64,000 nucleotides of DNA from Thiotrichaceae bacterium (GTDB lineage: Bacteria > Pseudomonadota > Gammaproteobacteria > Beggiatoales > Beggiatoaceae), in contig JAABRD010000006.1 in NCBI GenBank assembly GCA_011391085.1, forward strand, positions 62,001 to 126,000, given 5' to 3'. How positions within the stretch are numbered: the first letter of the stretch is position 1; every line of letters starts with the position of its first letter. Position numbers and translations under genes: made by a program. The notes below the pieces were generated by a model, which was not told where the DNA came from, ran no database searches, and was given only the letters and a program-made list of their open reading frames with translations. Shown one piece after another: positions 1 through 64,000 of the stretch.

Positions 1-1023
1 GCCTATCATTCGCAACTGGGGTTTCCAACGGCTATCGGTTCCACGCATAGCGGGATCACCTGTTACGCCTCCAGTCATGCCCGTAAGCACCCTTGTCCAC
101 CGACCCTGGTCACTTGCCCCCTCCATGAAATCAATAAGACTGGTCAATCCATCAAAACTATCATGGAACACACCCGTGCAGATGGCACTAAACTTCAAGT
201 GGAAATTTGCGCCGCCCCTTTGCAAATCATCACCAATGGGCAAACCGAATCTTACATTGTGGAATCTGTTCGAGATTTAACACAATCCATTCTATATTCC
301 CATGAACAAAAACTCGCTTCCCTGGGTCAATTGGCAGCAGGGGTGGCCCATGACATTCATAACCCGTTATCCTCCATTCGCCTGGCCCTACAATCGGCCT
401 TACGTTCTTTGGAATCCAAAGCCCCCAATTTGAATAGTATCCAGCATTATTTACATATTGTAGATAAGCAAATTGACAAGTGCATCTTTGTCACTCGGCG
501 TCTCTTAAAACTGTCCTCCACTCATTCAGAACACCCGCAACTGGTTTGTCTAAAAGAAGTGGTGACCGACACAGTCTCGTTACTCGAATACGATGCCAAA
601 GAACGTAACATTGACATCCAATCTCAATTTGGCAATGCCCATTATCGTGTGTTAGCCATGGAAAGCGATATGCGTATGTTAGTCCTAAACCTTCTCCAAA
701 ATGCCTTCAATGCCATGCCCCAGGGTGGTCACATCCATGTCCAACTACGTTCTCGTGCTGGCAACGTTCAACTTTCTATTCAAGACTCTGGCGTGGGCAT
801 TCCGCCTCATATCCTCAACAGTATCTTTGAACCCTTCTTCAGTTACCGTCCCAGCGGCAAAAAAGGGTCCGGTCTGGGTTTGGCCATCTGTAAAAGCATT
901 GTGGAACGTCACCAAGGCCGCATTGAAGTCAGTAATACCGATCAGCGTGGCAGTCAATTTGTGGTAACGTTACCCGATGCCCAAACCCATAGTTTCAATC
1001 AACCCTTAGCTAAGGCAGTATAG
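1..1023 (+). CDS. PAS-sensor histidine kinase, 5' end outside window
   Basis: The reading frame is open from base 1, so the gene begins upstream of the window. The visible part starts in a PAS-like domain with a Cys/His cluster (C..SH.....PCP then CPL, about residues 21-42) of a type seen in PAS domains of redox or metal-linked regulators. It continues into a HisKA domain with the H-box AHDIHNP (His about residue 117) and an HATPase_c domain with N-box LLQNAFNAM, G1 box DSGVGIP and G2 box GSGLGLAI. No transmembrane segment is visible. The stop TAG directly abuts the ATG of the sigma-54 response regulator, so the two are probably one operon and a cognate pair. The signal sensed is unknown. Confidence 0.9.
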   Translation, partial: AYHSQLGFPTAIGSTHSGITCYASSHARKHPCPPTLVTCPLHEINKTGQSIKTIMEHTRADGTKLQVEICAAPLQIITNGQTESYIVESVRDLTQSILYSHEQKLASLGQLAAGVAHDIHNPLSSIRLALQSALRSLESKAPNLNSIQHYLHIVDKQIDKCIFVTRRLLKLSSTHSEHPQLVCLKEVVTDTVSLLEYDAKERNIDIQSQFGNAHYRVLAMESDMRMLVLNLLQNAFNAMPQGGHIHVQLRSRAGNVQLSIQDSGVGIPPHILNSIFEPFFSYRPSGKKGSGLGLAICKSIVERHQGRIEVSNTDQRGSQFVVTLPDAQTHSFNQPLAKAV

Positions 1024-2406: not shown

Positions 2407-2478
2407 TGGTTTTAGTGGATAGTGGTTTTAGTGGATAATATGGATAGTGGATAATAGTGGATAGTGGATAGTGGATAG
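2403..2478. repeat. Tandem GTGGATAGTGG-type repeat
   Basis: Short direct repeats of TAGTGGATAGTGG and TAGTGGTTTTAGTGG. The first unit supplies the stop codon of the upstream regulator gene. The same repeat, or its complement CCACTATCCACTA, recurs near 6912-7170, 12084-12215 and 29186-29392. Confidence 0.85.
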
Positions 2479-2510
2479 CGAGGTGAACTATTATGAGAGA
2501 CGGTGCGTTG

Positions 2511-2562
2511 CACCCCCGCACGCGGGGGGAATCACTCCCCCGTGTACGGGGGGTTGGGGGTG
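2511..2562. repeat. GC-rich palindrome (CCCCGCACGCGGGG / CCCCCGTGTACGGGGG)
   Basis: Two adjacent C/G-run palindromes, CCCCCGCACGCGGGGGG and CCCCCGTGTACGGGGGG. The same pair forms the core of the C elements at 3709-3824 and 43279-43392 and of the truncated one near 18409. Here it lies between the regulator and the cyclase gene without the TATAGTAATATTC ends. Confidence 0.75.
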
Positions 2563-2648
2563 TACAAGGGAGAGTCACTTCCTGGGAACGATGTTTGCAA
2601 GCAGTTATTATATATTCTATCCCCGTTTCTTGCAAAACTTAATATGAC

Positions 2649-3713
2649 ATGAAAAGATTAACCTATATCAGCAAAGCTTCTCCTGAATTATCTAGTTCGG
2701 AAATACGACAGATAGAACAATTGTCTGTCGAAAATAATCGGCGTGATCAAATCACAGGCGTCTTATTATATTTAAGTGGCCTATTTTTTCAAGTTCTTGA
2801 AGGAGAAGAGGATAATTTGGATAAATTATTTGCCAAAATCTCACAAGATAAACGTCACACAGACGTGTTATGTTTAAAAATGGAAAATTTCATCACGGAC
2901 CGTAGATTTCCCGACTGGGCGATGAAAATTATCAATTTGGATAAAAATACAGATGTCCTGATGCAACCTATTAAAGTGTTGTTACAAACAGTGGCAGAAT
3001 CTTATCGCATTGTAGAGAGATACACTCAGCCTAGTGTAATTAACATCCTCAACCGTGGTCAAAATCCCCTTACCGTGTCGCCGCGAACCGTGGATAAGAT
3101 AATCTTTTTCAGTGACATTGTCGCTTTTTCTACCTTCACAGAAATCTTGCCGGTAGCGGAAGTCGTTAAGTTGGTCAACTCTTATTTCACTTTATGTACC
3201 AGAATTATCTGCGCCCATGAAGGTGAAGTCACTAAATTTATCGGTGATTGCGTCATGGCATCGTTTCCTCGCAAGCAAGCAGATGCGGCCATTTGTGCAA
3301 GTCTGGAAATTTTTAGCGAATTGCAAACATGCCGTGACCAGACAGAAGTGACAAATCCTTTACATTTCCTATATAACGGGATAGGATTGTCTTACGGCAA
3401 AGTGATTGAAGGAAATATTGGTTCCTCTCTGAAAATGGATTATACTTTATTGGGAGATACTGTGAATGTTGCCGCCCGACTGCAAGCGTTGACTCGTAGC
3501 TTACCTTATAGTTTGGCGATGACAGAGAAAGTCAAGGCATGTTGTAATCAAACACATTGGTCTTTTATCCATCTGGGCCCACATCAAGCCAAAGGTAGGC
3601 AGGAATTGATAGAAGTCTATTCCATCGAGGAGGAGGTGACTAGGAAATCCCGGGAAGTCACACAACTTGCTGAATTAATTAGATTGAATTTTAGCCGTCA
3701 GGGACAAATATAG
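2649..3713 (+). CDS. BLUF-domain photoactivated adenylate cyclase (bPAC-like)
   Basis: A 354-residue soluble protein with a flavin-binding BLUF domain (about 1-95) and a class III nucleotidyl cyclase domain (about 150-345). BLUF key residues are present: Y6, N30, Q48 and the FPDWAM motif (W90, M92). The cyclase has both metal aspartates (FFSDIVAFS, D156; KFIGDCVMASF, D200), K196 and T266 in the base-recognition positions expected for ATP, and the N273/R277 motif in LLGDTVNVAARL. From memory the whole chain lines up with bPAC of Beggiatoa sp. (about 350 residues), shifted by one residue. Predicted role: blue-light-driven cAMP synthesis. The stop TAG lies inside the terminal repeat of the following C element. 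Confidence 0.93.
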   Translation: MKRLTYISKASPELSSSEIRQIEQLSVENNRRDQITGVLLYLSGLFFQVLEGEEDNLDKLFAKISQDKRHTDVLCLKMENFITDRRFPDWAMKIINLDKNTDVLMQPIKVLLQTVAESYRIVERYTQPSVINILNRGQNPLTVSPRTVDKIIFFSDIVAFSTFTEILPVAEVVKLVNSYFTLCTRIICAHEGEVTKFIGDCVMASFPRKQADAAICASLEIFSELQTCRDQTEVTNPLHFLYNGIGLSYGKVIEGNIGSSLKMDYTLLGDTVNVAARLQALTRSLPYSLAMTEKVKACCNQTHWSFIHLGPHQAKGRQELIEVYSIEEEVTRKSREVTQLAELIRLNFSRQGQI

Positions 3714-3824
3714 TAATATTCCTTCTCATTTGTACCCCCCCCCTGCCCCCCGCACGCGGGGGGGAGTCACTCCCCCCGTGTACGGGGGGCAGGGGGGTAC
3801 AAGTGATGGGGAATATTACTATAT
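3709..3824. mobile_element. C element (MITE-like, TATAGTAATATTC ends)
   Basis: Inverted termini TATAGTAATATTCC...GGAATATTACTATA, then inverted TTGTACCCCC/GGGGGTACAA, around a GC-rich palindromic core. The ends read TA-TAGT...ACTA-TA, which suits TA target duplication of Tc1/mariner/IS630 type (inference). Its left end provides the stop codon of the cyclase. Confidence 0.7.
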
Positions 3825-4139
3825 GATTAAGGTATCTCAGGATTTTTATGCAGAATGAGAAACTTAGTTTCTTTTTGGTACCGATGATGGTGGAATCCCA
3901 AAACCCGTTTTGAGACGATAGCGTAGTTTTAGGACTCCACCGTCGTCCCAAAACGTGTTTTGGGACCCCACCGTTGAATAAGCACCTATTAGATGGCGTT
4001 GCACACAAGGTAATCCTAATTCACAGACACCGTTATGAGATGGCAATAGCACGCCCCCTTGACTGTTTTTCAATTCCCAATTTAGAATATCCCTCTTAAT
4101 ACTTTTACACTTGACATTCATAAGGAGAACGATAAGGCA
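3714..4139. other. Repeat-filled gap before the ricin-like gene
   Basis: After the C element come a half copy of the AGAAACTTAGTTTCTT repeat (about 3859-3875) and three degenerate copies of a CCCAAAACGNGTTTTGGGAC palindrome (about 3879-3975), which recurs as a perfect palindrome at 52757-52796. No gene was recognised. Confidence 0.6.
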
Positions 4140-4610
4140 ATGATGAAACCTCTTTACCTAACCACTACGTTTGTAGCCACTTTAACTGTGTCTGGCGCCG
4201 CTGGTGCTTACGGCTTACTTATGCACCCCGCTACCGCCGAAATAGGATGCTTGTCAGTCAAAGACGATGATGCGGTGTTAGCATTGGCAGATGCCTGCAA
4301 AAATGCCGAAGCAAACACACGTTGGGAACTCGAAAAATTAGACGGCGATGCCGTCCTCATTCACCATGCCCCTGAAGGACAACCTGCGGATTGCTTGACC
4401 TTTGTGGGCGAAAAAGTGGTACTCCAATCTTGTAGTAAAACCAATGACAAGCAACAATGGAAAATGTCTGATAATGGTCAAAAAACCACGATCAGCAATG
4501 GCGAAAACTGCTTGTCTGCCTTCGTGCATCCCAAAGGCACCACAGTAGATTTTCAAAAATGTCAAGGTGCTGATGACGACACTGACTGGGTTTGGGAACT
4601 CGGTAAGTAA
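4140..4610 (+). CDS. Small exported ricin-type beta-trefoil protein
   Basis: A 156-residue protein with an N-terminal signal sequence or single anchor (about 1-33, hydrophobic with an Ala-rich end). The rest resembles one ricin B-type lectin unit: repeated CLSV/CLTF/CLSA strands, cysteine pairs, and QQW near W111 and a DWVWEL ending in place of the QxW signatures. Such domains bind carbohydrates; the ligand here is unknown. AAGGAG lies at 4122-4127, 12 bases before the first of two tandem ATG codons. It stands alone between repeats with no operon partner. The family call rests on pattern only. Confidence 0.65.
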   Translation: MMKPLYLTTTFVATLTVSGAAGAYGLLMHPATAEIGCLSVKDDDAVLALADACKNAEANTRWELEKLDGDAVLIHHAPEGQPADCLTFVGEKVVLQSCSKTNDKQQWKMSDNGQKTTISNGENCLSAFVHPKGTTVDFQKCQGADDDTDWVWELGK

Positions 4611-4616
4611 TCAGAT

Positions 4617-4753
4617 GGTGAGACAATGTGGGTTCTTGTGGTTTCTGTAGGGGCAACCCTTGTGGTTGCCAAAAATGGATGAAATTTGCCGTCGTCAAGG
4701 GCAACCACAAGGGTTGCCCCTACCAAGAAAATCACCCATGTTGTCTCACTACC
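4617..4753. mobile_element. Diverged A-type element with GGGGCAACCC core
   Basis: Ends GGTGAGACAATGTGGG and CCCATGTTGTCTCACTACC are a divergent form of the A termini. Inside, GTAGGGGCAACCCTTGTGG and its complement form a hairpin (4648-4723). The same core sits in A elements at 22250 and 56774-56902. Confidence 0.6.
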
Positions 4754-4768
4754 CTTTCTGGGTCAGCC

Positions 4769-5125
4769 TCAACTCTTCTGCACCACCCTAACCAACTCTG
4801 CCAACTCATTGACGCCGCGAAAATGTTTCAACCCATTTTCAATATGCGCAGCCAATGCCAATCCCAACTCGTTGCTACTCTCGATTCGACACAACTCTAC
4901 CAATATTCTTTCATACAACAACGCATATTCTCCAAGCAAGGTGGGCATCTGAAATTCAAGCCCGTCTAAGACCTTCTCCTTTTGTAACTGATAATCAAAT
5001 CCTTCTCGAAGAGAACAAACGAGGGCTAACCTTGCCAAAATATTAGGTGTGACCCCAGTTCGCCCCTTCAATATTTTCAATTGTTCAGAAGCTGTTTTTG
5101 ATAAATGGATACGATTTGGAAGCAT
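4769..5125 (-). CDS. dndE: DndE-like DNA phosphorothioation protein, orphan
   Basis: A 118-residue protein beginning MLPNRIHLSK and continuing LKGRTGVTPNIL, the signature of DndE (PF08870). The C-terminal half has the family-like LLGEYA...ALAAHIENGL pattern. DndE belongs to the DndABCDE machinery that places sulfur in the DNA backbone; it is a small protein reported to associate with DndCD and nicked DNA. Length is normal and the MLPNR start is typical. None of dndA, dndB, dndC or dndD is in the window. No clear Shine-Dalgarno is seen. It may be a leftover of a lost cluster or serve another role. Repeats flank it on both sides. Confidence 0.8.
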   Translation of the reverse strand: MLPNRIHLSKTASEQLKILKGRTGVTPNILARLALVCSLREGFDYQLQKEKVLDGLEFQMPTLLGEYALLYERILVELCRIESSNELGLALAAHIENGLKHFRGVNELAELVRVVQKS

Positions 5126-5445
5126 GTTTTGAAGGCAATGAGTAAGATAATGAATAGTGAATAATGAATAATGCCAAAATCAAGGTGGACTAGAGGCTTA
5201 CGCCTCCATGCCATTAAATGAATGAAAGAATTTACTTCAATGTAGGGTGGATTAAGCGAAGCGTATCCACCATTTCAAAAAATGCAAAAAACAGGTGGAT
5301 ACGCTTCGCTTAATCCACCCTACGCATACCTCCGCTGGAACGCAATAAGAATTATTGCGCCGTGCGCCCGTGCGTAGTTGCGCAATAATTCTTATTGCGT
5401 TCCAGCGTGAATTGTATAATTTGGTGTGAATATTACTCTATTCGT
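5126..5445. repeat. Two long palindromes between dndE and cls
   Basis: 5242-5323 is a palindrome of GTAGGGTGGATTAAGCGAAG with its complement, also found at 14457-14532. 5332-5407 is a palindrome of GGAACGCAATAAGAATTATT with its complement, which recurs inside C elements at 8424-8869, 24221-24370 and 46515-46756. A C-type right end (GTATAATTTGGTGTGAATATTACTC) follows. No gene is seen. Confidence 0.8.
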
Positions 5446-6885
5446 CTATAAAATCGGCGACATCAAACGCGCCAAGTTAATTCTCAATTGGCACCAAACC
5501 CGCTGGTCCTTCAACTCAGATAAATTCACCTGTCGCGCAACCGCAAAGTCACTTTGTAACATTTCGGTCACGGCTGTGACAAAAACAGGATCGATAACAA
5601 ACGCCGTGATTTCAAAATTCAACTTGAACGAACGATTATCCAAATTGACGGTGCCCACGCCGGCCATCACATCATCAATGAGAATAACTTTCTGGTGCAT
5701 AAATCCCGCTTGATAACGATACAGTTGCACACCCACCGACAGCATTTCATCATAATAAGAAAACGAAGCCAGTTGCACAAGGCGATGATCAGCTTTATCA
5801 GGCATCAAAATGCGCACATCCACCCCTCGTAACGCCGCCATTTGCAACGCTGCCACCATCACCTCATCTGGCACAAAATAAGGACTCGCAATCCAAAGAC
5901 GTTGTTTAGCTAAATGACAAGCATTGGCAAAAAAGAGAGTGCAAATCGGCAAACTATCCGCAGGTCCTGTGGGAAGGATCAAAACCGTAGCATCTTGGTC
6001 TGCGTCCTTTTCCACTTCCCAAAATAAGTCAGGTAGGTCATCAATTGCCCAATACCAATCTTTGAGAAAAGACCACTGTACATGAGTCACTGCGGGCCCT
6101 TGAATTTGAAGATGCGTATCCCGCCAATGGCCTATTTTAGCACATTTACCTAAATACTCATCACCCACATTCAAGCCACCGATTAAAGCCGTTCGACCAT
6201 CGACTACAACAATTTTACGGTGATTGCGGAAATTAACTTGAAAACGATTCCTTATATCCCCTTTTGTGCTATAAAAAGCTGTCACTTGAACCCCCGCCTC
6301 ATCTAATTGTTCCAGATACTCATCGGGCAACGTATGCGAACCAATTTCATCATAGATAAAATACACACGCACCCCCTGTTGCGCTTTTTCTATCAAACTT
6401 TGCTTGATAGTGTTACCAATTTCATCATCATGGACAATATAATATTGCATTAAAATATAACTTCTGGCAGAATCGATAGCCGCTAGAATGGCGCAAAAGG
6501 CTTGCTGACCATCAATGAGAAGTGTCACCGCGTTACCGCCTAAAAATGGTATACCAAATGCGTTGGCTGGCGCCTGTAAAGGCTTCAACAGAGTTGGCAA
6601 AACGGCCCCATATTTGGTAGCAACCCCATGAAGAGTCTCCTGAATAAAACGTTGATACTGGAGGTCAACTGTGCGATACACTTCCACATAACCACGAAAC
6701 GTATCTCCTCCCAATATCCAGTATAGAGGCACCGTCACATAAGGTAAAGTCACTAGGGAAATGGCCCAAGCAATGGCACCGTGCGAAGAACGGGCATTCA
6801 TGATAGCGTGTATCGCATTGATGATTCCCAATACTTCTATAAAGAATAAAAGACTGAGATTAAAAATATGATTGTCGAACCACAT
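5446..6885 (-). CDS. cls: Cardiolipin synthase (phospholipase D family)
   Basis: A 479-residue membrane enzyme of the ClsA type that makes cardiolipin from phosphatidylglycerol. Two N-terminal transmembrane helices (about 8-28 and 36-58) precede two phospholipase-D domains, each with an HKD motif: HRKIVVVD with GGLNVGDEY (about residues 215-238) and HQKVILID with GTVNLDNRSFKLNFE near 395-425. Length and order fit the family. It is monocistronic, with repeats on both sides. The start ATG is followed upstream by repeat DNA and no clear ribosome site. Confidence 0.95.
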   Translation of the reverse strand: MWFDNHIFNLSLLFFIEVLGIINAIHAIMNARSSHGAIAWAISLVTLPYVTVPLYWILGGDTFRGYVEVYRTVDLQYQRFIQETLHGVATKYGAVLPTLLKPLQAPANAFGIPFLGGNAVTLLIDGQQAFCAILAAIDSARSYILMQYYIVHDDEIGNTIKQSLIEKAQQGVRVYFIYDEIGSHTLPDEYLEQLDEAGVQVTAFYSTKGDIRNRFQVNFRNHRKIVVVDGRTALIGGLNVGDEYLGKCAKIGHWRDTHLQIQGPAVTHVQWSFLKDWYWAIDDLPDLFWEVEKDADQDATVLILPTGPADSLPICTLFFANACHLAKQRLWIASPYFVPDEVMVAALQMAALRGVDVRILMPDKADHRLVQLASFSYYDEMLSVGVQLYRYQAGFMHQKVILIDDVMAGVGTVNLDNRSFKLNFEITAFVIDPVFVTAVTEMLQSDFAVARQVNLSELKDQRVWCQLRINLARLMSPIL

Positions 6886-6904
6886 AAAGTTAATGAATTT
6901 GAGG

Positions 6905-7173
6905 GGAGAGGTAGGTAGTGGATAGTGGTTTTAGTGGATAGTGGATAGTGGATAGTGGATAGCGGATAGTGGTTTGAGTGGATAGTGAAGAATAAATTGT
7001 ACCGGACTAGAGGCTTTAGCCGGAGACGTGCCCCTGCCACCGGCTGAAGCCTCTAGTCCACCACTATCCACTAAAACCACTATCCACTATCCACTATCCA
7101 CTATCCACTAAAACCACTATCCACTATCCACTAAAACCACTATCCACTAAAACCACTATCCACTAAAACCACT
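6905..7173. repeat. Composite palindrome: TAGTGGATAG arrays around a GGACTAGAGGC hairpin
   Basis: A left array of GTGGATAGTGG (about 6912-6985), an E hairpin GGACTAGAGGCTTTAGCC...GGCTGAAGCCTCTAGTCC (7003-7058), then a right array of CCACTATCCACTA (about 7062-7173). The two arrays are mutually inverted, so the whole block is one large palindrome. The right array ends in CACTATG, whose ATG is the start of the next gene. Confidence 0.85.
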
Positions 7174-8382
7174 ATGAACGATAATACACCATCCATTGCC
7201 ATCCCGCAACCTTGGGAACGTTTATTCTCCATTGCCGCACGAGTGCTAGTGTGGGGAATACTCTTTGCCGTCCTCTACCTCCTGCGTTCCTTTTTCTCAC
7301 TGATTTTCCTCATTTTCGTCTTTTCCTATGTCCTCGCAAATGGGGTAAATCGTCTTGAACCTTATATCAAAATCCGCACTTTTCGTGTTATCTTAGTCAC
7401 CACGGTATTTTTAAGTATCATCGTGACGTTGAGTTTGTTTTTGGCGCCCCGCGTGGCCCTGCAAACGAAAGGTTTTGTCAACCAATTTCCTAGCTATCTG
7501 TGCGCCATGGATTTGCAATTATTAACCCTAAACAGCAAATATCCCTCCCTGGCGGAATTGGTTCCGAAGTTTAAAACCTTTCAAAAAAATGGAGAGGAAT
7601 GGAACAGTAGCAGTGGAAAAAGCAATTGTATACTGGGCGACCTCCGAAAATGGAAAATGGAACACTCCCCGACCGTATCCATTATCAGTCAACTACTTGG
7701 TCTTGGAGAAGAAGTGTCAGGCCAAAAATTTCTCAAACTCCTGCTTGACAACGTTGCCAATATTGCCACCACCTTGGCCACCAGCATTGTTTCTATCATC
7801 GCTACGTTTTTGTTAGCCCTGCTATTCTCGTTCCTCATCGTCTTAGACCTCCCCAAATTAAGTGCCAGTGTGGCAGAACTGGAAAACACCAAGATTCGTT
7901 TCATCTATATCGAAGTCGCCGACAGCATTCGCAGCTTTTGCAGCGTGCTAGGTCAAGCCTTTGAAGCGCAATTTATCATTGCCATCGTCAACTCTATCCT
8001 AACCGCGTTAGGTGTAGTATATCTCCTCGATTTGGGCGAACAGGTTGCTTTTCTCTCCGCCATTGTCTTCCTAATGAGTTTCATCCCCGTGGCCGGCGTC
8101 TTCATCAGTTCCGTCCCCATCTGTCTTATCGCCCTGCAAACCTCTGGCTTCCAACTGATGTTGTTAGGCATTTTGATGATCACTGTCATTCACGCCATTG
8201 AGGCATATATTTTAAATCCCGAAATTTATGGTCATCGGTTACGCATCAACCCAGTGATTGTTCTCATCATTTTGACCATTGGAGGCAAACTGTTTTACTT
8301 TTGGGGCCTCATCTTAGGCGTCCCCTTGTTCACCTATTTTTTCGGACATGCGATTCGGTTTAAAAAAGAGGAAAGTTCTTGA
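7174..8382 (+). CDS. AI-2E family transporter / PerM-like permease
   Basis: A 402-residue polytopic membrane protein with four N-terminal hydrophobic segments, a loop region (about 120-180), and further helices to about residue 395. The pattern PVAGVFISSVP (about 308-320) and the C-terminal stretch HAIEAYILNPEIYGHRLRINP (in short pieces, ILNPEIYG and LRINP) are hallmarks of the AI-2E/PerM/YdiK family. Members export small molecules or act in ion homeostasis; the substrate is not predictable. ATG follows directly on the CCACTATCC array with no Shine-Dalgarno. Confidence 0.92.
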   Translation: MNDNTPSIAIPQPWERLFSIAARVLVWGILFAVLYLLRSFFSLIFLIFVFSYVLANGVNRLEPYIKIRTFRVILVTTVFLSIIVTLSLFLAPRVALQTKGFVNQFPSYLCAMDLQLLTLNSKYPSLAELVPKFKTFQKNGEEWNSSSGKSNCILGDLRKWKMEHSPTVSIISQLLGLGEEVSGQKFLKLLLDNVANIATTLATSIVSIIATFLLALLFSFLIVLDLPKLSASVAELENTKIRFIYIEVADSIRSFCSVLGQAFEAQFIIAIVNSILTALGVVYLLDLGEQVAFLSAIVFLMSFIPVAGVFISSVPICLIALQTSGFQLMLLGILMITVIHAIEAYILNPEIYGHRLRINPVIVLIILTIGGKLFYFWGLILGVPLFTYFFGHAIRFKKEESS

Positions 8383-8384
8383 TG

Positions 8385-8420
8385 ATTCCAGAAGTCCAAA
8401 GCGTAGCTTTGGACTCCTAG
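8385..8420. repeat. AGTCCAAAGCGTAGCTTTGGACT palindrome
   Basis: Short inverted repeat directly after the permease stop. Variants lie near 18381, 27270-27303, 44331-44388, 54230 and 55012. It might act as a transcript-end hairpin but lacks a T-run. Confidence 0.7.
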
Positions 8421-8447
8421 ACTTATAGTAATATTCGTTCAAATTTG

Positions 8448-8612
8448 GGTAGTGATGCAATCTGGGTGAAATATCGTGCGGTTTCTCTTCGTCTTGAACT
8501 TTGATTTAGATGATTAAATGAGGGCTATGAAAGGAGGCTATGACTAATCAGAGTCCATCTGAAAATCATTCTAATCATAGTTCAGACATTTCACCCACAT
8601 TGCATCACTACC
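8448..8612. mobile_element. A element A1 (165 bp), 8-bp duplication
   Basis: Starts GGTAGTGATGCAATCTGGG and ends CATTGCATCACTACC. The flanks are CAAATTTG (8440-8447) and CAAATCTG (8613-8620), an 8-bp duplication with one mismatch. The interior is the common AT-rich palindromic core containing TTAGTCATAGCC-type sequence. Confidence 0.85.
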
Positions 8613-8698
8613 CAAATCTGTACGACTCTGCTTACGCGCAATAAGAATTATTGCGCCGTGCGCCCGCTATGCTACGGCGCGATACCGCGCAATAATTC

Positions 8699-14534: not shown

Positions 14535-17500
14535 TTATTTATTCCCTAAGCGGGGTAATCCACTAGGTAACAAGTCATCCTGGGGTTCGCTGACGCCTTC
14601 CCGTTCGGTGATAATAAACGAACTGGTGTTGTCGCGAAGGCCACAGGGAGTCTGCATTAAACCAGAAGCATCGAGAAACTTTTGGGAACCCAATAAGGCA
14701 TCAGGACAAAGAGACTCTTCTGGAGAACCCAGAAATAGTTGCCCATCTATTTGGAGACGAAGAGTGGCACTCAGCGAACTGTTTGAGGAAACTGCGATTT
14801 TATCAGAAGCAATATGGGCATCGCCCGCCTTTCCAAATTCCACTTCGGAGAAAATTTTGGAGTTGTTCAAAATCAGAGAATTGGACCGATTAAGCGTAAT
14901 GTTACCACTATTTTTGCGATGTTGCTTGAAATAAGCAACTAACAAACTGTCTTGCAAGAGGAGTTTGTCAGTCACATTGATCAACAAATTACCACCACCG
15001 GCGTATCTGGCTACCGTGGCCAGTTCTCCTCCTCTGAGGAGTTCTAAGTCTGTCGCAGAAATGGTCAAATCTCCCGCGTCTCCGGCATCTTCATGGTTAT
15101 AGAAGGACCTGGTGAAGATGCCACTGGTCCTGGGATACTCATCTGACAGGGCCGTTTGTGGATTGTCCAGTTGCCAAGTGCCATGAATCGCCAACTTTCC
15201 CTTGATGTTGAACGTCATTTCCCCCCCCTTCCCAGTGCCATGGGTAAACGCTGTGATTTGTCCTCTGTCTAACAGACTCAGTCGGGTTGACGTGATCTCA
15301 ATATCCCCACCGGCCCCTGCATCGCTGGCCGTTTCATCTTGAAACCAGGAACCGGTGGCAATTCGACTGGGGTAGCGTTTAGAAGAGGCACCTGACAATT
15401 TCAGAGAATCTGCGATTTGTAGAGAAATCGCCCCCCCCAGACCGCGGTTCTTACTATGTGCTTCTATCGTGCCACCTTGGAGTAAGGTGAGTGAACTGGC
15501 TTTCATTTGAATGGCACCACCGATTCCAGTAGCGGAAGTTACGCTACCGATATGTGCTTCAGTCATCATCATCTGGTCGGTGTGTACCGTCACTGCACCT
15601 CCAGCACCGGGACCTGTGGTGCGACTGTGAATAGTGGCTGGGTGAGTCATGGTCACAGTTTTCGCAGTTAACGCGACGTTTCCACCCGCCCCAGAATGTT
15701 GAGTATCACTCTCAATTTGGCCTGACAGAGTTAACTCTTCCGTGTTCATTTTCACGCTACCACCGTCACCTGCACCGGTGGTCATGGTCTGAATGAGTCC
15801 CTGGTTGGACACGGTTAGAGTTGGCGAAGTCAACTCCAAATTTCCGCCGGCACCAGTCTGTTCAGCATGAGTTTCAATTCGTCCTGACACAGTCAACCGG
15901 TCAGCATTTACTGTTACGGTACCTCCAGCACCTGTACCAGAAGTGCTACTGTGAACAAGTCCTGGATCGGTGATTGCCAGGGTCTTGGTAGTCAGGTTTA
16001 CAGGTCCACCTGAACCGATATGTTGAGTTTGACTTTCGATTCGACCTGTCATGGTCAACTGGTTAGTTTCTACTGTCACGGTACCACCTGCACCTGTACC
16101 GGAAGTGCTACTGTGAATGACGCCTGAGTCAGTGATTGCCACGTTTGGAGAGGTCAACTTCAGATTTCCGCCAGTCCCAGAATTTTGAGTATGACTTTCG
16201 ATTCGTCCCGACACCGTCATTTGGTTGGTATTCACTGTTACCGTTCCACCTGCACCAGTGCCAGTGGTGCTACTGTGAATGACGCCTGGATCGGTTATCG
16301 CCACCGTTTGGGTCGTTACATTCAAGTGTCCTCCTGAACCAGACTCTTGACTCTGACTCTCGATGCGACCAGTCATTGTCAACTGGTCGGTATTCACGGT
16401 CACGGTTCCCCCGGTACCGGCGCCCGTGGTGCTACTGTGAATGACTCCTGGGTTCGTCACCGTCACGGTTTTCGCGGTCAAATCCAGATTTCCGCCAGCG
16501 CCAAAGTGTTGAGAACGACTCTCGATGCGTCCTGATACCGTCAACTCGTCAGCCGTATTCAAGGTCACTTTCCCCCCAGCACCGGCGCCGGTGGTGCCAC
16601 TGTGAATGAGTCCGGGGTCCGTCACGGCCACAGTTTTCGCCGTCAAGTCCAGATTCCCCCCAGCACCTGAGTCTTGAGAATCACTCTCGATTCGCCCTGA
16701 CACCGTCAACTCGTCAGTATTTATGGTCACCGTCCCGCCGGCACCGGCGCCCGTGGTGCCACTGTGAACGACTCCTGGGTCGGTTATCGCCACCGTTTTA
16801 GCCGTTACATTCAAGTGCCCTCCTGAACCAGAATGAGTACGACTCGCGATTTGCCCAGACACCGTCAGTTGGTCAGTATTCACCGTCACCGTTCCACTGG
16901 CACCTGCCCCTGTGGCGTGACTCTGAACGAGTGCCTGGTCCGTCACGGCCACGGTTTTGGCAGTCAAATCCAGATTGCCACTGGCACCACTCCCGCCACT
17001 TCGAGTCTCCACTTGACCATGGTTAGCCACCGTAATGGTTTCAGCATTTAACTTGATTTCTCCCCCCGTTCCAGCATTGATGTTGGGACTTCGAGTCTCG
17101 GTGGAAATACGACTTGCTTGACCCAAGCCGGCGGTGCCCGTCACTTCCAACGTCTCCGTTTGAATGGTAATGGCGCCACCCGGTCCGGGACCCTCTGTAT
17201 CTGTGAAAATCTGGCTACCGTCTCGCACTTGCACTTGTTTGGCTTGGAGGTTTAATTGACCCGCCCGTTGCCCTTGTTGGGCATGACTGGCGATCACACT
17301 GCTACCATTTGGGGAACGCGCCCCCAACAGGGTTAAATTCCCGGCAATCTTGAGAGTGATGTCGCCTGCGCCTCCAGAACCATAACTGGTGGTAGAGAGT
17401 TCCGAACCATCCAATTCTAACGTGTCGCCGTCAATGTCGATTCGCCCGGTCTTGTTAGAGTTGGTAGTCCAATTGGAAGTTTCTATATCTGTACGAGACA

Positions 17501-18479: not shown

Positions 18480-18734
18480 GGTAGTGTTGCAAAGGTAATG
18501 GCTGTGGGTTTTGGAGTACGGAATTTATTCCGTTTTTTGGAGTACGGAATTTATTCCGCTGGAGTACGGAATTTATTCCGTTGGAGTACGGAATTTATTC
18601 CGTTGGAGTACGGAATTTATTCCGCTGGAGTACGGAATTTATTCCGCTGGAGTACGGAATAAATTCCGTACTCCAAAAAACGGAATAAATTCCGTACTCC
18701 AAAACCGCTATACCATTACTTGTACAACACTACC
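18480..18734. mobile_element. D element: palindrome array with GGTAGTGTTG ends
   Basis: Imperfect inverted ends (GGTAGTGTTGCAAAGGTAATGG and its complement, given here as GGTAGTGTTG...CAACACTACC) enclose seven or more units of GGAGTACGGAATTTATTCCG followed by the inverse CGGAATAAATTCCGTACTCC. Each unit contains the palindrome CGGAATTTATTCCG-like. No direct target duplication was found. The right end encodes the tail and stop of the Dam relic. Confidence 0.75.
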
Positions 18735-38058: not shown

Positions 38059-38280
38059 GGTAGTGTTGCAAAGGTAATGGTTATGGGTTTTGGAGTACGG
38101 AATTTATTCCGTTTCAAGCGGAATTAATTCCGTACTCCAACGGAATTAATTCCGTACTCCAACGGAATGAATTCCGTACTCCAACGGAATTAATTCCGTA
38201 CTCCAACGGAATTAATTCCGTACTCCAACGGAATGAATTCCGTATACCAAAACTGCTATACCATTACTTGTACAACACTA
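38059..38280. mobile_element. D element: palindrome array
   Basis: Ends GGTAGTGTTGCAAAGG and CTTGTACAACACTACC enclose one GGAGTACGGAATTTATTCCG and six units of CGGAATTAATTCCGTACTCC, i.e. the same design as 18480-18734 with a different, largely EcoRI-like GAATTC/GAATTAATTC centre. It starts seven bases after the CoA-transferase stop. Confidence 0.85.
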
Positions 38281-54741: not shown

Positions 54742-54921
54742 AGTTGGAGTACGGAATTTATTCCGTGTCGGGGGCCAGACGGAATAAATTCCGTACTCCA
54801 ACGGCCAGACGGAATAAATTCCGTACTCCAACGGCTGGACGGAATAAATTCCGTACTCCAACGGCTGGACGGAATAAATTCCGTACTCCAACGGCTGGAC
54901 GGAATAAATTCCGTACTCCAA
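54742..54921. repeat. Array of CGGAATAAATTCCGTACTCC units
   Basis: One GGAGTACGGAATTTATTCCG and five inverse CGGAATAAATTCCGTACTCC units spaced by AACGGCTGGA. Same unit as in the D elements but with a different spacer and without the GGTAGTGTTG ends. Units are near-identical. Confidence 0.88.
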
Positions 54922-57153: not shown

Positions 57154-57567
57154 TTACCAACAATCTTTAGTAGTCTCACTACCACCTGCATTTTTCGCAG
57201 TTCTCTCGCCCGTCTGCGTTAGGAAAAAATCCCGGCAAGTTTCATCTTTCAGTTGCATAGAACCTTCTTTTGGGACGGCTGTCAGAGTGTATGTGGATTT
57301 GCCAGCGCCGGTGATACTGAAGTCATAATACTTTTTGTCGGCCCAGACCATGCCCAATTTCACCATATCACTTGTATAAGAGTTCGTATCTGACCGAATA
57401 TCTTCCTGCTTTTGCGCCATCTCCATCAATGTCGTCTTTGCTTCTGTGCGACGCGATTTCATGATGTAGTTGTCGTAAGCGGGGTAAGCAACCACGGCTA
57501 TCAGACCGATGATGGCAATGGTAATCAGCAATTCGATCAACGAAAAGCCGCGTGATGTTTTTAACAT
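57154..57567 (-). CDS. pilE: Type IV pilin (PilE-like)
   Basis: A 137-residue prepilin. The leader MLKTSRG is followed by FSLIELLITIAIIGLIAVVA with the conserved Glu5 and the usual Phe1 after the cleavage Gly. The globular part has two cysteines forming the C-terminal D-region (C about 117 and 136). GAGGAGGAAC is an excellent ribosome site. It follows the pilY1 gene on the same strand, as minor pilin genes of the pilVWXY1E cluster do; hence the pilE call. Confidence 0.9.
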   Translation of the reverse strand: MLKTSRGFSLIELLITIAIIGLIAVVAYPAYDNYIMKSRRTEAKTTLMEMAQKQEDIRSDTNSYTSDMVKLGMVWADKKYYDFSITGAGKSTYTLTAVPKEGSMQLKDETCRDFFLTQTGERTAKNAGGSETTKDCW

Positions 57568-57780: not shown

Positions 57781-60700
57781 TTACTTCTGCATCCAGAAGA
57801 AACGTTTGATGGAGACTTCGTCCTCAGTAATCGATTTTCCTGGTCCACCATCACCTAGGGGTTCTTGGCCATTTTCCGTTCTTGTCTTTTGTGGTCCCTC
57901 AGGTGGTACTCCGGAACCTTCTACAAAACGGTCGTTTTTCGTCAGTTCCTTGTTTTGATCCACGTCAATCACGGCAGCAGCGGTAAACACATCGAGAACG
58001 TATGTGCGTTTTTTGCCTTCCGAGAAATCGCACACACTTTCGGATTGAGTAGGCGGTATATAAGTATTGAAAAATACCGTCTTCTTAGTGGAATTGTCAG
58101 CACCGTCTTCCCCAGTCTCAGTGATAAGGACTTTTGAGAAGCCTTTTTCACCAATCCAGGTTCTGTCATCACCGGCTTTTTCTTGCAGGTTGATGTACCA
58201 CCCTCTGGACTTTTTCAGTTCGAGAATGACTTTCGAATTGTTATCATCCTCCTGAATGACATTCGAAGTGGCATCGAACATCTGGTCTAGTGTGATGGAG
58301 CCGGCCCAATTGGACAAGTCATCAGTCAAGATGCCGGTCTGCGTATCGCGGAAGGCATAAAACTGATTGTGAACCACCTTTTCCAACGGATCGGTGCGGG
58401 TACCACTGACTATCGCCACTAAATCATATTTAGTGCCATCTCCTTCGGCGTACAGTTGGTCATCCAACCGAATCACTTCGGGTGGGTAGAAGAAGCGCCG
58501 TCTCTCCTCTGGTTTATCAGTTGACACCGTGGCCAACTGAATTCCTTGGGCAGTTTGACCGGCACCTAAGCCCATGGGTAAATCCACGCGCCACACTTGA
58601 CCACCCATATCACCTACATAGAGGCGGTCCGCATTGCCGTCGGCATCTGTGTCTTTAAATAGCATTTCAGAGGGAATGGCATAAGTCATTCCCGTCAGTT
58701 TCAGGTCGGCCCTGTCATCACTGCTGGCCCACCATAAACGTTCGCCCGTCATGGCATCCGCTATGAAGATTGCATTACCGCCTCCCACTTTATCCGCTGT
58801 GGGACCAAAACCTTCATCTTGGCTAGGATGATAACCGCCACCAAATAATACCACTTTGGTACCTTTCCCTTTCCATTGGATTTGCGTAACCAATGGACGG
58901 GACCAGCTTTGTCCTAGTTTTTCAAATGGGGTTTCAGGAATACCGCCCTTAATCACCCACATCAATTGCGGAGAACTGCCCGGCGCTTCCTTTGACCCTG
59001 TCACGTCAAGCGCATAGATGTTGTTGCCACCACGGCGCATACTGATGTACAACTTGACAAAATCACCATCCTCGGGGTCGACTTGGACATTGCCATTGTT
59101 GTCGAAAGTCCAGAGGGTAGGGGTGCTGTCAAGTCCATAAATATGTTCATCACCAGCTTGATTTTGCATCAACGCCATTTGCTTTGACAACAAGTCTTTA
59201 GGCAAAAATGCCCATTCTTCGTCACCCCCAATGGTTGGATCGGGATTGCCGGTATCTGCCTTCAACATGCGCAAAAGTCCGTCATTCGTACCGACAAACA
59301 GTCTCGCTTGTTGTTGTTCTACGGTTCCACCATACGTAACCACGACCGGGGAACTATGTAACGGGTCGGCAACTCTCCAACGTGGTTCTTGCGAATCGCC
59401 ATCACCATCTTCATCCATGACGTCTTGACCACGAATCCAGGTGATGACTTTTTCAAAGTCATCGGCGGGTTCGTCACCGGTAAAGAGGAAGGGTTTCAAT
59501 TCCTCATTGTCAATGGTAATCTCGTTCTTGGAGTTATCCAAGTTGACATTACGCGCATTGTCGTCATCTAGGTAGGTAAAAATCTTGCGTGTCCCAGAAT
59601 CTGGAACATGTTCACCTGCACCGCCTAAGGTGACCTCTTTACCATCTGGCATGACACTCCAGTAGCTTCTGGAACTTTCTGCAATGTAGCCCTCTTTAGA
59701 TGCTTTTTGGTTGTCAGCATCTAAAATTTCGCCCACGTTACAATCGATCCCATCTGTACTCTTCACTCCTTGGCAGATGTGATATTTTTTGACATTCCCA
59801 AACCACCGTGGGGTCCGGTCCGGTTTGAACAACGAGAAGTATACCTCCTTGTTGTGATACAAGTTGTTAAAACGGTTCAACGACACGCCACCTGCGGCAA
59901 ATAAGGTGCTGGTGGTCATCGCTTGGGAGACGATGGATTTAAACGCTGCTACCAATTCTTCTACAGAATCAGCTTTGTAAAAGTTACCACCGCCTTCTTT
60001 GGCGATTTCCTTGAGATATTTCACCGCTTCGCCGTTTTGTCTAGTGGCCTTCTCATCTTCCACGTACCCGCCTGGTTGCACGGTTGCCATTTTTTCGGGC
60101 GGCACTTCCTCATCGGTTTTACCATACTCCGAAGTGGCATAATAGTAGATGTCATCTTCCCTAACCACGGGTCGACCTTCACCATCTTTATAAACGCCGG
60201 TCCAGCCTTTCCCCAATTGGAATCCAATGGAGTGAGTGGTGACATACTGGTTGTCTTTCACCCTAGTGTTGTTGTCATTCCGGTGTAAGAATCTGGCCAG
60301 GTCGATGCCACACATTTCGGACTTACTGATTTTGATGGTCTTCGGGCCCTCCTCAGCGTCGGTCCCTCCTTCTTCAATCACACTATCCGGGTCTGGATAG
60401 GTCAAGTCGCAACTCGATTGAAATTCCTTGATCATCCCTTGAATATTTTCAGCCGACGCATTTTGGTTGGCCAAACCATCGGTCAACAACACCAGGTGAT
60501 TAGACTGACAAGGTGTTAAAATGGGGCTTGTATATTTGGCTACCCCCGAAATTTCCTCTGATGCACATATGGCTTCAAAGGGTTTCGTCGTCGTACATTC
60601 TTTCGGACGTGAGAGAATCCCACCCGTGTAAGTGCCAGGGTGACTCACCAAATATAAGGATTGGTCATGGCGAGTTTTGCCATAGTCAACCGAACCACCC

Positions 60701-63700
60701 CGGAAATACTGGGCGGATTCATACAGGCCATCCACCAGTGGCGTGTTACTGGGTGGAATGTCAATGTTTTTGACAATCTTCCGGAGTTGCCGACGCACGG
60801 TCATGATGTCCCCTTGACCACCTTCACCCAAATAACCGTCCACTTTAATGCGCAGGATAGCCGCTGTGGCAGGACCCGCCCGAAACGCATTGGCGGCCCG
60901 AAAGCCTGTGCCTGTGATGAACAGAGACAGGTTGTTGTAGGTATTCCAGTCATCGTGTTGGATGATTTCGTTAATCACTTCACGTATATCTGATGAAGTA
61001 TACGTATAGTTCTTCTGCCATGAAGTCATCTCTGGGGCAACCCACGGCACATCTTTCGTCTTCTTGCGGCCACTGAGGTCACCAGGGGCTGCGGTAAAGG
61101 GTTCTGAATCACCAGCTTTCTCGCCGCGAATGGTTAACTGAGTTGGCGGCGTGTTTGCAGCTTCTTTGCTAGTCGTGCGGGCCGTAAAAATCAATTTGGC
61201 CTCCACCACTTTAGACGTTTTGCTGATGGGGACGTCGCGGAACCGGAAACCTACCAGACGAGAATCTTCTTTGTAACCCAGTTCTAAGCTATCGCTGGTT
61301 AGGTATATATCTCCTGCTTCTGCACCGGAGACCTTTTCTTCGGAGTCGTCACTTTCAAAGGCAATTTGTCCGGAATAGGTTTGTTGGATACAACTCCCTT
61401 TTGGTACAGATTTCATGTCATATTCGACATTTAACACGGGCGCCAACACGGGGGCGTCATCGTAAGATTTGGTTATCCGCAAGGGGGAACCATCACGTTT
61501 GGAGATGATGAAGACGATACCTCCTTTCCCTCCACACCAGCCGGAACGACTGACAACAGTCTGTACCAATTCGGCCAGTTCTGGACTGGTATAAGTAGCA
61601 CCTTTTTCCCAAGTTTCCGTTATTTCCCAAGGCACCTCGGTTTGCGCCAGGGGGCGCGAACTGAGGTTTTTGGGAGTGGCCGTGAACGTTTCTGCGGCAT
61701 CACTATCTTCCACTTGAACACGCAAATTGGCTGGTTCCGCAAGTTGTTCATCACTTCTAAATTCGATGGAAGCGGTGAGAACTTTGGCACCTTGAGGGAT
61801 ATCGACATCCACGAACCGTAAGCCGACGAGTTGTTCATCACCGTCTCCCACAGTACCACCTTCACCTTCGCCGGCCCCCATACCAGCAGAATATTTCACC
61901 GTGAGTCGAGGCAGGTTAGCAAACCCTTTAAGATCAGCCACCGCAATTCCTTTGGTCTCATCTGCAAGGTCATCTTTGACGCCAATGAATCTTCTGAACC
62001 CCCCAATTTCAGGCGCAAGTTTACCGGTAAAATCTTCGGTCATGGCGTTCTCAAACATAAACACCACACTGTTTCGACTCTTCCAGTCGTCTTGGGTGAC
62101 TAACTCTTGTAAGATAGCCGATAGGTCTGTCGTTTGAACGGACGGGTCTGTGGTACCAGTTGACGGATCTGTGGTGCCGCCAGTTGACGGATCCGTGGTG
62201 CCGCCGGCTGGATCCGGCGTACCAGCAGGCGGATTAGTAGCCTGTTTGGCTGGCGTTCTAAAGGTCGTCCCAGGGGTGGATGGTGACACCGATGTCCATT
62301 CCACCGAGGCTTTGGTTTTTATGCGTTTCGACAACCAGGGGTTAGCGCTGGCAAGGTCTAGGGCGTTGCCCGTTTTTTCACCATACACGTTGAGATTTAG
62401 GTCTAACTGTGACGGATTTTGGTAATCGACATGGTCATTGCCTTGGTGAGTAAAGGTAATGTAGGCTTCGATAATGGTGGCGTTTTTGGGAATGGGTAAT
62501 TCCTGAAACCGCACACCCACCGCACTTTTAGTGCCTTTAATCACCATGCCTTTGCCACCTTCCAGGGCCTTCTTGGCTGTTTCCAATGCTTTTTTAGCCG
62601 CTTCTTCGGCGGTTTTAGCATCCTCTAAAGTCTTTTCAGCGGTATCTTTTGTGGCCTGGGCTGTATCCATTTTGGCTTTGGCACTGTCCATCTTCACCTT
62701 GAGTCGATCCACCGTTACTGATTTTGGCATAAGACTGTTCATAGTCTTTTCCTTGGCAGTCATGTCCGTTTTGGCCGCTTTCATCTCCGTATTTTTTTGG
62801 TCTCTGGCGGCTTTCTTTTCGTCCATAACGGTTTTCTTGCCGGCCAAAACTGCCTGTGCATCGGCCAACAGGGTCTTTTTCTCGTTCTGTACGCCCATCG
62901 CTTCATCTACCACCGCCTTTTTTGCGGTTCTTTCCGCATCAGCCGCTTCTTTAGCTGCCAGGGCATTGTCTTTAGCAGCCGTTGCAACATCGAGGGCCGC
63001 TTGTTTTTCGTTCAAAGTTGCTTGGGTCGCATCTTTGGTTTGTTGGGCAGGCGCAACGGCGGCCTGCTTGGTATCCAGGGTGGTTTTTTTCGCATCCATA
63101 TCCGCCTTTAACGTTGCCAAGTTACTGGGGACAGGAACCTTAGCTGCGGCTATATCATATTTCGTTTTGGCGGTCTCATATGCTGTTTGGGCACTGGTTG
63201 CCTGACTGACAGCCCTCTCGTACGCTGTGTTGGCCGTGTTAAACGCACTTTTCGCTGTACTATACGCTTGATTTGCGGTTTGGTAATTGGTAGAGGCAGT
63301 TGTATAAGCGGCCGTGGCTACCTTGTAGGCGTCATTAGCCGCGTTATACTCTGTTTTGGCAGCGTCCACCACGGCTTGGGCCGCTACCAACGCTTCCTTG
63401 GCACTGTCAACCAAAGTTTTAGCATTGTCATAATCTGTCTTGGCCGCTAGATATTCAGCATCAGCGGCGTTAAAGGCTTCCAAGGCGGTTTGATAAGCGG
63501 CTTCGGCGGCTTTAAATGCGAGTTCGGCTTCCTTGAAGGCCTGATTTTGGGTATCCAGCGTCGCTACTGCGGCGTCATAATCAGCTTTGGCAACATTATA
63601 ATTGGTGGTTGCTGTTTGTAAGTTGGTGTCAGCGGTGGTCAACTTGCTTTGCGCCGTATTAGTGGCCGTTTGCGCCTTTTTATATGCGGTCTCGGCTGCC

Positions 63701-64000
63701 TTTACTGCTGCTTGAAGTGCCACGGTGTCTTTTTCAGCAGATGCTGGAACGTAGCCCAAGTACATCCCATCGGTGGTTTGTTTGGCACCGTATTCGACGG
63801 CTTGTTCATTGTTTTCCACTTTGTATTCTTGGGTACGATTATTCCACACGCCTCTGCCTGAGATAACTTGGGCAGTGGTTTCTGCAACCGTCCAACTCAG
63901 GTGCAGTAAGGGCGGGTCATACAGTTCTTTGCGGCCGAAAAAGCCTCTGGCATTAGTGGGAGAGTCGGCGGTACTCTTAAACAGCAATACGATGCTATTG
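57781..64000 (-). CDS. pilY1: Giant PilY1-like pilus tip protein, 5' end outside window
   Basis: At least 2070 residues; the frame is open to the right edge (SIVLLFKSTADSP). Order from the visible N-terminal side: a short part with RGFFGRKELYDPPLLHLSW, an Ala-rich helical region of about 395 residues (DNA about 62553-63738), three similar beta domains with VGVRFQELPIPK / VGLRFVDVDIPQ / VGFRFRDVPISK and a PSTGGTTDPST linker, a von Willebrand A-like region (NHLVLLTDGLANQN near 60.48 kb), and the C-terminal PilY1/PilC propeller (WRVADPLHSSPVV, LFVGTNDGLL) with the calcium loop DTDADGNADRLYVGD. PilY1 primes type IV pili and mediates adhesion. The coiled-coil insert is not typical of PilY1. Confidence 0.92.
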   Translation of the reverse strand, partial: NSIVLLFKSTADSPTNARGFFGRKELYDPPLLHLSWTVAETTAQVISGRGVWNNRTQEYKVENNEQAVEYGAKQTTDGMYLGYVPASAEKDTVALQAAVKAAETAYKKAQTATNTAQSKLTTADTNLQTATTNYNVAKADYDAAVATLDTQNQAFKEAELAFKAAEAAYQTALEAFNAADAEYLAAKTDYDNAKTLVDSAKEALVAAQAVVDAAKTEYNAANDAYKVATAAYTTASTNYQTANQAYSTAKSAFNTANTAYERAVSQATSAQTAYETAKTKYDIAAAKVPVPSNLATLKADMDAKKTTLDTKQAAVAPAQQTKDATQATLNEKQAALDVATAAKDNALAAKEAADAERTAKKAVVDEAMGVQNEKKTLLADAQAVLAGKKTVMDEKKAARDQKNTEMKAAKTDMTAKEKTMNSLMPKSVTVDRLKVKMDSAKAKMDTAQATKDTAEKTLEDAKTAEEAAKKALETAKKALEGGKGMVIKGTKSAVGVRFQELPIPKNATIIEAYITFTHQGNDHVDYQNPSQLDLNLNVYGEKTGNALDLASANPWLSKRIKTKASVEWTSVSPSTPGTTFRTPAKQATNPPAGTPDPAGGTTDPSTGGTTDPSTGTTDPSVQTTDLSAILQELVTQDDWKSRNSVVFMFENAMTEDFTGKLAPEIGGFRRFIGVKDDLADETKGIAVADLKGFANLPRLTVKYSAGMGAGEGEGGTVGDGDEQLVGLRFVDVDIPQGAKVLTASIEFRSDEQLAEPANLRVQVEDSDAAETFTATPKNLSSRPLAQTEVPWEITETWEKGATYTSPELAELVQTVVSRSGWCGGKGGIVFIISKRDGSPLRITKSYDDAPVLAPVLNVEYDMKSVPKGSCIQQTYSGQIAFESDDSEEKVSGAEAGDIYLTSDSLELGYKEDSRLVGFRFRDVPISKTSKVVEAKLIFTARTTSKEAANTPPTQLTIRGEKAGDSEPFTAAPGDLSGRKKTKDVPWVAPEMTSWQKNYTYTSSDIREVINEIIQHDDWNTYNNLSLFITGTGFRAANAFRAGPATAAILRIKVDGYLGEGGQGDIMTVRRQLRKIVKNIDIPPSNTPLVDGLYESAQYFRGGSVDYGKTRHDQSLYLVSHPGTYTGGILSRPKECTTTKPFEAICASEEISGVAKYTSPILTPCQSNHLVLLTDGLANQNASAENIQGMIKEFQSSCDLTYPDPDSVIEEGGTDAEEGPKTIKISKSEMCGIDLARFLHRNDNNTRVKDNQYVTTHSIGFQLGKGWTGVYKDGEGRPVVREDDIYYYATSEYGKTDEEVPPEKMATVQPGGYVEDEKATRQNGEAVKYLKEIAKEGGGNFYKADSVEELVAAFKSIVSQAMTTSTLFAAGGVSLNRFNNLYHNKEVYFSLFKPDRTPRWFGNVKKYHICQGVKSTDGIDCNVGEILDADNQKASKEGYIAESSRSYWSVMPDGKEVTLGGAGEHVPDSGTRKIFTYLDDDNARNVNLDNSKNEITIDNEELKPFLFTGDEPADDFEKVITWIRGQDVMDEDGDGDSQEPRWRVADPLHSSPVVVTYGGTVEQQQARLFVGTNDGLLRMLKADTGNPDPTIGGDEEWAFLPKDLLSKQMALMQNQAGDEHIYGLDSTPTLWTFDNNGNVQVDPEDGDFVKLYISMRRGGNNIYALDVTGSKEAPGSSPQLMWVIKGGIPETPFEKLGQSWSRPLVTQIQWKGKGTKVVLFGGGYHPSQDEGFGPTADKVGGGNAIFIADAMTGERLWWASSDDRADLKLTGMTYAIPSEMLFKDTDADGNADRLYVGDMGGQVWRVDLPMGLGAGQTAQGIQLATVSTDKPEERRRFFYPPEVIRLDDQLYAEGDGTKYDLVAIVSGTRTDPLEKVVHNQFYAFRDTQTGILTDDLSNWAGSITLDQMFDATSNVIQEDDNNSKVILELKKSRGWYINLQEKAGDDRTWIGEKGFSKVLITETGEDGADNSTKKTVFFNTYIPPTQSESVCDFSEGKKRTYVLDVFTAAAVIDVDQNKELTKNDRFVEGSGVPPEGPQKTRTENGQEPLGDGGPGKSITEDEVSIKRFFWMQK
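62553..63738 (-). other. Ala-rich coiled-coil segment of PilY1
   Basis: About 395 residues of heptad-like Ala/Lys/Thr/Asp sequence such as AEAAYQTALEAFNAADAEYL and DAAVATLDTQNQAF, with almost no Pro, Gly or aromatic residues except a regular Tyr. The regular 7-residue spacing of A and Y points to a long rod. There is one break (KVPVPSN, near 63130). Confidence 0.85.

Follow-up and report, generated by a model that had tools for sequence, protein, structure and literature searches.

The 64,000-nucleotide stretch of a Thiotrichaceae bacterium genome analysed here (contig JAABRD010000006.1, positions 62001–126000; hereafter the window) carries, running past its right end, a pilY1 gene whose product is probably an adhesin at the tip of type IVa pili, with a von Willebrand factor type A (vWA) domain split by four domains resembling carbohydrate-binding modules (CBM) of family CBM96, the second of which bears an alpha-helical hairpin ~28–30 nm long, formed by an alanine-rich rod. 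The structural side of this reading is well supported, and the functional side we infer.

The gene lies on the minus strand, as do all parts of it described below, with residues ~366–2437 encoded inside the window (57781–64000) and the remainder reaching contig position 127094 (‘window 65094’). Because the contig continues past the window, to position 138862, pilY1 is complete on it, as a single uninterrupted open reading frame (ORF) of 2437 residues (locus L002, positions 282–7595) that is the sole match to this protein in its own genome (genome search; completeness 99.9%). The 5′ end, missing when the initial annotation was made, could be recovered from the contiguous contig and encodes, by inspection, a hydrophobic N-terminal leader, MKRLRTFFTSLLISLLAGYAAPGWTGDD... 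On sequence grounds the protein is PilY1, and the initial assignment to a giant member of this family holds. The propeller profile PF05567 scores 46.9 bits on residues 1721–2437 (cut-off 28.1), phmmer aligns the region with the solved Pseudomonas aeruginosa propeller 3hx6 (E 8.9e-8), and the motif DTDADGNAD (residues 2148–2156), a DxDxDxxxD-like loop, aligns at the Ca site of that structure. PF05567 was not reported in a scan of the whole 2437-residue protein, and the evidence is therefore the scan of the C-terminal fragment. We delimit the C-terminal region, which contains the beta-propeller with its Ca-site-like motif, as residues 1741–2437 (window 57784–59874).

The vWA domain is divided between the two ends of a long insert. 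The first part of its metal ion-dependent adhesion site (MIDAS), DNSGSM (D52, S54 and S56), lies near the N-terminus, upstream of the rod, and the two remaining residues, T1451 (in NTPLVDGLYES) and D1539 (in LVLLTDG), follow some 1400 residues later in the second vWA half (residues 1425–1740; window 59875–60822), delimited by the MIDAS alignment and structure models. All five residues are invariant across 14 orthologs. The insert measures ~1260 residues, including the 395 residues of the rod, and houses all four beta-domains between MIDAS part 1 and parts 2–3; among the 46 proteins with both MIDAS parts located by pattern, 45 have beta-domain hidden Markov model (HMM) matches between parts 1 and 2. 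The vWA profile PF13519 matches the first half only, with 16.5 bits, or 20.9 bits when the insert is excised, below the cut-off of 27, and reaches 31.6 bits in the Candidatus Thiomargarita nelsonii relative. In the AlphaFold2 (AF2) model of that relative (mean predicted local distance difference test (pLDDT) score 74.6), the segment preceding the insert is vWA-like (strand 46–52, helix 67–81, strands 86–93 and 109–115), and the segment following it, likewise vWA-like, consists of helices 713–723 and 732–744, strand 825–831, a helix, strand 890–897, a helix, strand 916–922 and a further helix. The modelled succession of elements is consistent with one vWA fold, broken by the insert after its third strand. 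The rod and beta-domains, initially thought to precede the vWA domain, are thus nested inside it, between D52 and T1451/D1539.

The rod itself spans residues 453–847 (window 62553–63738) and occupies a strand–strand loop of beta-domain 2, entered from MYLGY and left into AVGVRF; in the alignment of rodless orthologs, the corresponding strand with LG passes directly into VGVRF. As initially proposed, it is an Ala-rich coiled coil, composed of 26% Ala and ~2.5% Pro plus Gly, with near-zero net charge and with Ala and Thr frequent at non-core positions too. Fourier analysis of hydrophobic residues gave a peak period of 3.50 in both arms (AILMVFYW, residues 450–650, power 31.5; ILMVFYW, residues 656–850), and 0 of 500 shuffles were as high in either case. 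Arm 1 (residues 453–652, 200 residues; window 63139–63738) consists of 29 unbroken heptads in one register, in which one core position is taken by bulky hydrophobic residues in 86% of cases and the other by Ala in 93%, and has neither Pro nor Gly; its stretch free of both counts 201 residues, compared with a longest such stretch of 40 elsewhere in PilY1. Arm 2 (residues 659–847, 189 residues; window 62554–63120) is mixed at its core positions, with heptad breaks near residues 682, 734–752 and 790. Set against an Alacoil, a tight antiparallel coil that has Ala at the same core position of both helices, the rod has the 93% Ala position in arm 1 and the mixed core in arm 2. Both arms were delimited by periodicity, register, the AF2 model and the positions of Pro and Gly. 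The predicted turn between them, VPVPSN (residues 653–658; window 63121–63138), falls at the midpoint of the rod and contains its only Pro pair (654/656). The two possibilities that would have undone the initial description can be discarded: the uninterrupted ORF and the match in codon-position GC content between the rod (0.56/0.45/0.50) and the remaining gene (0.54/0.43/0.50) exclude a separate gene or a frameshift, and the heptad period, the lack of any DNA tandem repeat within the rod and the modelled helix exclude unstructured low-complexity sequence. NCBIfam matches hinting at kinship with SMC or PgrA scored far under the cut-offs and were read as coiled-coil composition.

We consider it very probable that the rod folds as an antiparallel alpha-helical hairpin. 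Its ends meet adjacent strands of beta-domain 2 and it must therefore return on itself. Two orthologs carry shorter rods, one in the same-genus genome G001 (309 residues, arms of 152 and 145) and one in genome G011 (117 residues, arms of 52 and 51), both with a Cys-flanked turn at the midpoint; where Pro and Cys lie served to place the turn of each rod by eye. Such equal arms round Cys-flanked turns make the antiparallel hairpin the most likely arrangement, and the window's rod likewise combines heptad-periodic helix with two equal arms round a turn, anchored at one place. Since both ends lie in one beta-domain and the arms are of equal length, the hairpin is most likely a side arm and not an in-line element. 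An AF2 run on beta-domain 2 plus the rod, with an alignment of 19 sequences, produced helix over nearly the whole rod (pLDDT mostly 75–95 in arm 1), and a Foldseek search with this model retrieved antiparallel hairpins, including the RipA N-terminal domain (TMt 0.64–0.69), colicins E3/E9, an Smc coiled-coil segment and JetABC. At 0.1485 nm per residue, straight arms would extend ~8 nm (52 residues), ~22 nm (152 residues) and ~28–30 nm (200 and 189 residues).

The beta-domains are indeed related to one another, as stated in the initial annotation, which counted three of them; the HMM locates four, at residues ~236–403, 848–1020, 1086–1231 and 1277–1419. Only the terminal part of domain 1 (whole domain ~166–410) falls in the window (63865–64000). 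Domain 2 begins with a linker and its first strand, MYLGY (residues 411–452; window 63739–63864), recognized from the alignment with rodless orthologs and from a short pre-rod strand in the model, and resumes after the rod at strand AVGVRF (residues 848–1072; window 61879–62553; alignment and HMM). Domains 3 (residues 1073–1242; window 61369–61878) and 4 (residues 1243–1424; window 60823–61368) follow, both delimited by the HMM. A TTDPSTG-type tandem repeat with a period of 24 (window 62141–62234) forms a loop in the post-rod part of domain 2 and is absent from the aligned orthologs. In Foldseek searches, the modelled beta-domains of the T. nelsonii relative matched 8wab, a chondroitin-sulfate CBM (E 9.4e-5, TMt 0.66, probability 1.00), and 7vbo, the founding alginate member of CBM96 (TMt 0.56, probability 1.00), a family described previously (PMC9971899). 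By fold only, the models resemble CBM96-type modules, a likeness that makes glycan binding a reasonable suggestion, on which we would lean neither way. Matches of the beta-domain profile to ‘Pizza’ proteins were discarded as sums of ~6-bit matches to designed repeats. In all, 106 distinct sequences, among which there are fragments and near-duplicates, contain domains of this type, with two copies in culturable marine Alteromonas, three in Sedimenticola and commonly four in the window's own family. Judging from these sequences, vWA-inserted beta-domains are widespread in Gammaproteobacteria and the hairpin alone is restricted.

Several observations weigh against this picture. The beta-domains have neither a Pfam match nor a meaningful sequence match to solved structures in the PDB. 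The AF2 model of the rod region, built on a shallow alignment, is of moderate quality as a whole, with a mean pLDDT of 70.8 and a predicted template modelling (pTM) score of 0.42, and stretches of arm 2 are modelled at low confidence. Arm 2 is also interrupted by Pro and Gly, and its Ala core is less pronounced; pairing of arms 1 and 2 over their whole length we infer from symmetry. Several of the top Foldseek matches were large helical toxin subunits with TM of ~0.2, uninformative and set aside. Finally, no binding domain is present at the hairpin tip, hence no direct hint of a contact partner.

The rod is rare and has a single origin. The pre-rod segment is matched across its length in three of the 43 genomes of the family, namely the three that bear the rod; inspection of the next-best genome (G061) showed it to be rodless. 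Genome scans returned matches when the alignment served as query and none when the C-terminal piece did. In a tree of 35 sequences built from the C-terminal vWA and propeller region, the three rod-bearing PilY1 proteins form one clade (support 100/100), in which the shortest rod is sister to the two longer ones. Given this tree and the 3/43 distribution, the sequences fit a single gain of the rod with later lengthening. The rods align poorly between relatives, with lengths ranging over threefold. The NCBI records of the two rod-bearing relatives are labelled Thiomargarita sp. from ‘SulCav’ metagenomes. Most members of the family, including the Ca. Thiomargarita nelsonii record, have rodless PilY1, and the initially suggested link between the rod and large cells or filaments is not supported. 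Genomes G032 and G017 (loci L062 and L063, the latter corresponding to Ca. Thiomargarita nelsonii locus L084) contain three adjacent pilY1-like genes in tandem, encoding 1053–1648 residues, one of them without beta-domains. The library searched held no literature on PilY1 in Beggiatoa.

The propeller of PilY1 docks to minor pilins, and in the mechanism that we propose the C-terminal propeller would likewise place the protein on the minor-pilin tip complex, the vWA domain with its MIDAS and the beta-domains would attach to glycans on surfaces or in the matrix, and a stiff side arm, the hairpin, would project from the tip cluster, enlarging reach or spacing by a length that depends on the species. 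The part assigned to the hairpin, reach or spacing, is tentative and falls somewhat short of an even chance. The fuller version, in which the vWA domain houses a glycan-binding array together with a ~30 nm helical outrigger of species-specific length that sets the contact distance from the filament tip, is possible, if rather doubtful. Rods of neighbouring tips could instead pair into four-helix bundles and join pili or cells rather than extend reach. Long, unbroken, near-neutral Ala-rich heptads, Ala and Thr outside the core and the lack of a terminal binding domain would all suit helix–helix packing of this kind; yet a pilus tip is generally taken to carry few copies of PilY1, the differing rod lengths of the relatives make no obvious demand for an equal-length partner, and the genome search found no second rod match in the source genome, so that we regard such pairing as unlikely.

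It is similarly improbable that the rod is the outcome of neutral or weakly selected expansion, whereby an insertion in a loop took up helical repeats and grew longer while serving no particular function. The restriction to three of the 43 genomes, the more than threefold variation in length and the poor alignment speak for such an expansion, but three lineages within a single clade have retained the rod, each with equal arms and a midpoint turn, and random decay would break these features as well as the strict 29-heptad register without stops. A lower probability still attaches to a mechanical role. The vWA domain of PilY1 has been implicated in mechanosensing (PMC9210963, PMC11891296), and a rod situated in an insert within the vWA fold could add to the proposed force sensing as a lever or strain gauge; against this, it is attached to beta-domain 2 and not directly to the vWA core, rodless orthologs retain the same vWA domain, and, with both rod ends leaving the same loop, tension applied to the vWA termini would bypass the rod. 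Hardly credible is the in-line spacer originally envisaged, with the rod and beta-domains N-terminal to the vWA domain and pushing it, or the whole adhesin, off the pilus. The window alone, which lacks the 5′ end and hides the start of the vWA domain, allowed this view; it is refuted by the MIDAS residue at position 52 upstream of the rod, by the nesting of rod and beta-domains inside the vWA fold and by the exit and re-entry of the rod in one beta-domain between adjacent strands.

The locus is a standard minor-pilin/pilY1 operon. Upstream of pilY1 are genes for a GspH/FimU-like pilin, an N-methylated PilV-like pilin, PilW and PilX (matches to GspH, N_methyl, PilW and PilX_N), and downstream, on the same strand, lies a type IV pilin gene of the ComP_DUS/PilE-like type (window 57154–57567, minus strand; profile match), such that PilY1 is encoded together with the minor pilins. 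PilX (L002, positions 7877–8632) has a long GSGTGDSG repeat tail. A palindromic repeat around GGAATAAATTCCGTACTCC is dispersed through the window in arrays with a period of ~22–30 (21 matches compared with 0.02 expected), at window 18512–18704, 38092–38226 and 54746–54919, and a further array of this repeat is situated between pilX and pilY1, just upstream of the latter (L002, positions 7650–7850). Elsewhere in the window, a long tandem array of 162-base units (15820–16906) lies within a 1270-residue ORF, possibly for a repetitive surface protein.

With an N-terminus that looks signal-peptide-like by eye, the protein shares with P. aeruginosa PilY1 and Myxococcus xanthus PilY1.3 a vWA domain with the DxSxS...T...D MIDAS, a C-terminal propeller with a Ca-site-like motif and a minor-pilin operon, and differs from them in its length of 2437 residues and in the splitting of the vWA domain by four beta-domains and the rod. 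According to a 2026 survey (PMC13190605), the only N-terminal domains recognized in PilY1 proteins published so far are vWFA and DUF4114. An earlier InterPro count gave 68 PilC/PilY1 architectures (PMC8179133); modularity of PilY1 being known, the novelty resides in the present arrangement, which is apparently undescribed. This clearly bounded architecture enlarges the known PilY1 repertoire, the variable N-terminal half of which is thought to decide what type IV pili grip. A putative sugar-binding module is also carried by M. xanthus PilY1.1 and PilY1.2, where the N-terminal DUF4114 has been proposed to bind exopolysaccharide (PMC9109919), although that module is a different one and is accompanied by neither a vWA domain nor a rod. 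The likeness to CBM96 (7vbo and 8wab) concerns the overall beta fold (TMt 0.56–0.66), whereas no sequence similarity was found; the splitting of the vWA domain by CBM-like modules in many Gammaproteobacteria raises the idea of glycan-dependent surface contact.

Insertions inside the vWA fold with the MIDAS kept, as found here, are known from the pilus-tip proteins RrgA of Streptococcus pneumoniae and PilB of S. sanguinis, in which they protrude from the domain (PMC7893114, PMC8179133). Those proteins are unrelated to PilY1 and their arms are short, consisting of beta hairpins, loops and short helices, whereas here whole domains and a ~30 nm helical hairpin are inserted. In its modelled form, the hairpin resembles the RipA N-terminal domain, the receptor-binding hairpin of E colicins and the arms of Smc and JetABC, none of them related to PilY1. 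In colicin the hairpin serves to bind a receptor, and in Smc a hinge domain caps the arms; the tip here is a plain turn. If the outrigger is real, it would be an arm of a sort so far unreported in type IV pili, and the arms of ~8, 22 and 29 nm within one clade would provide a natural length series for the role of reach at the pilus tip.

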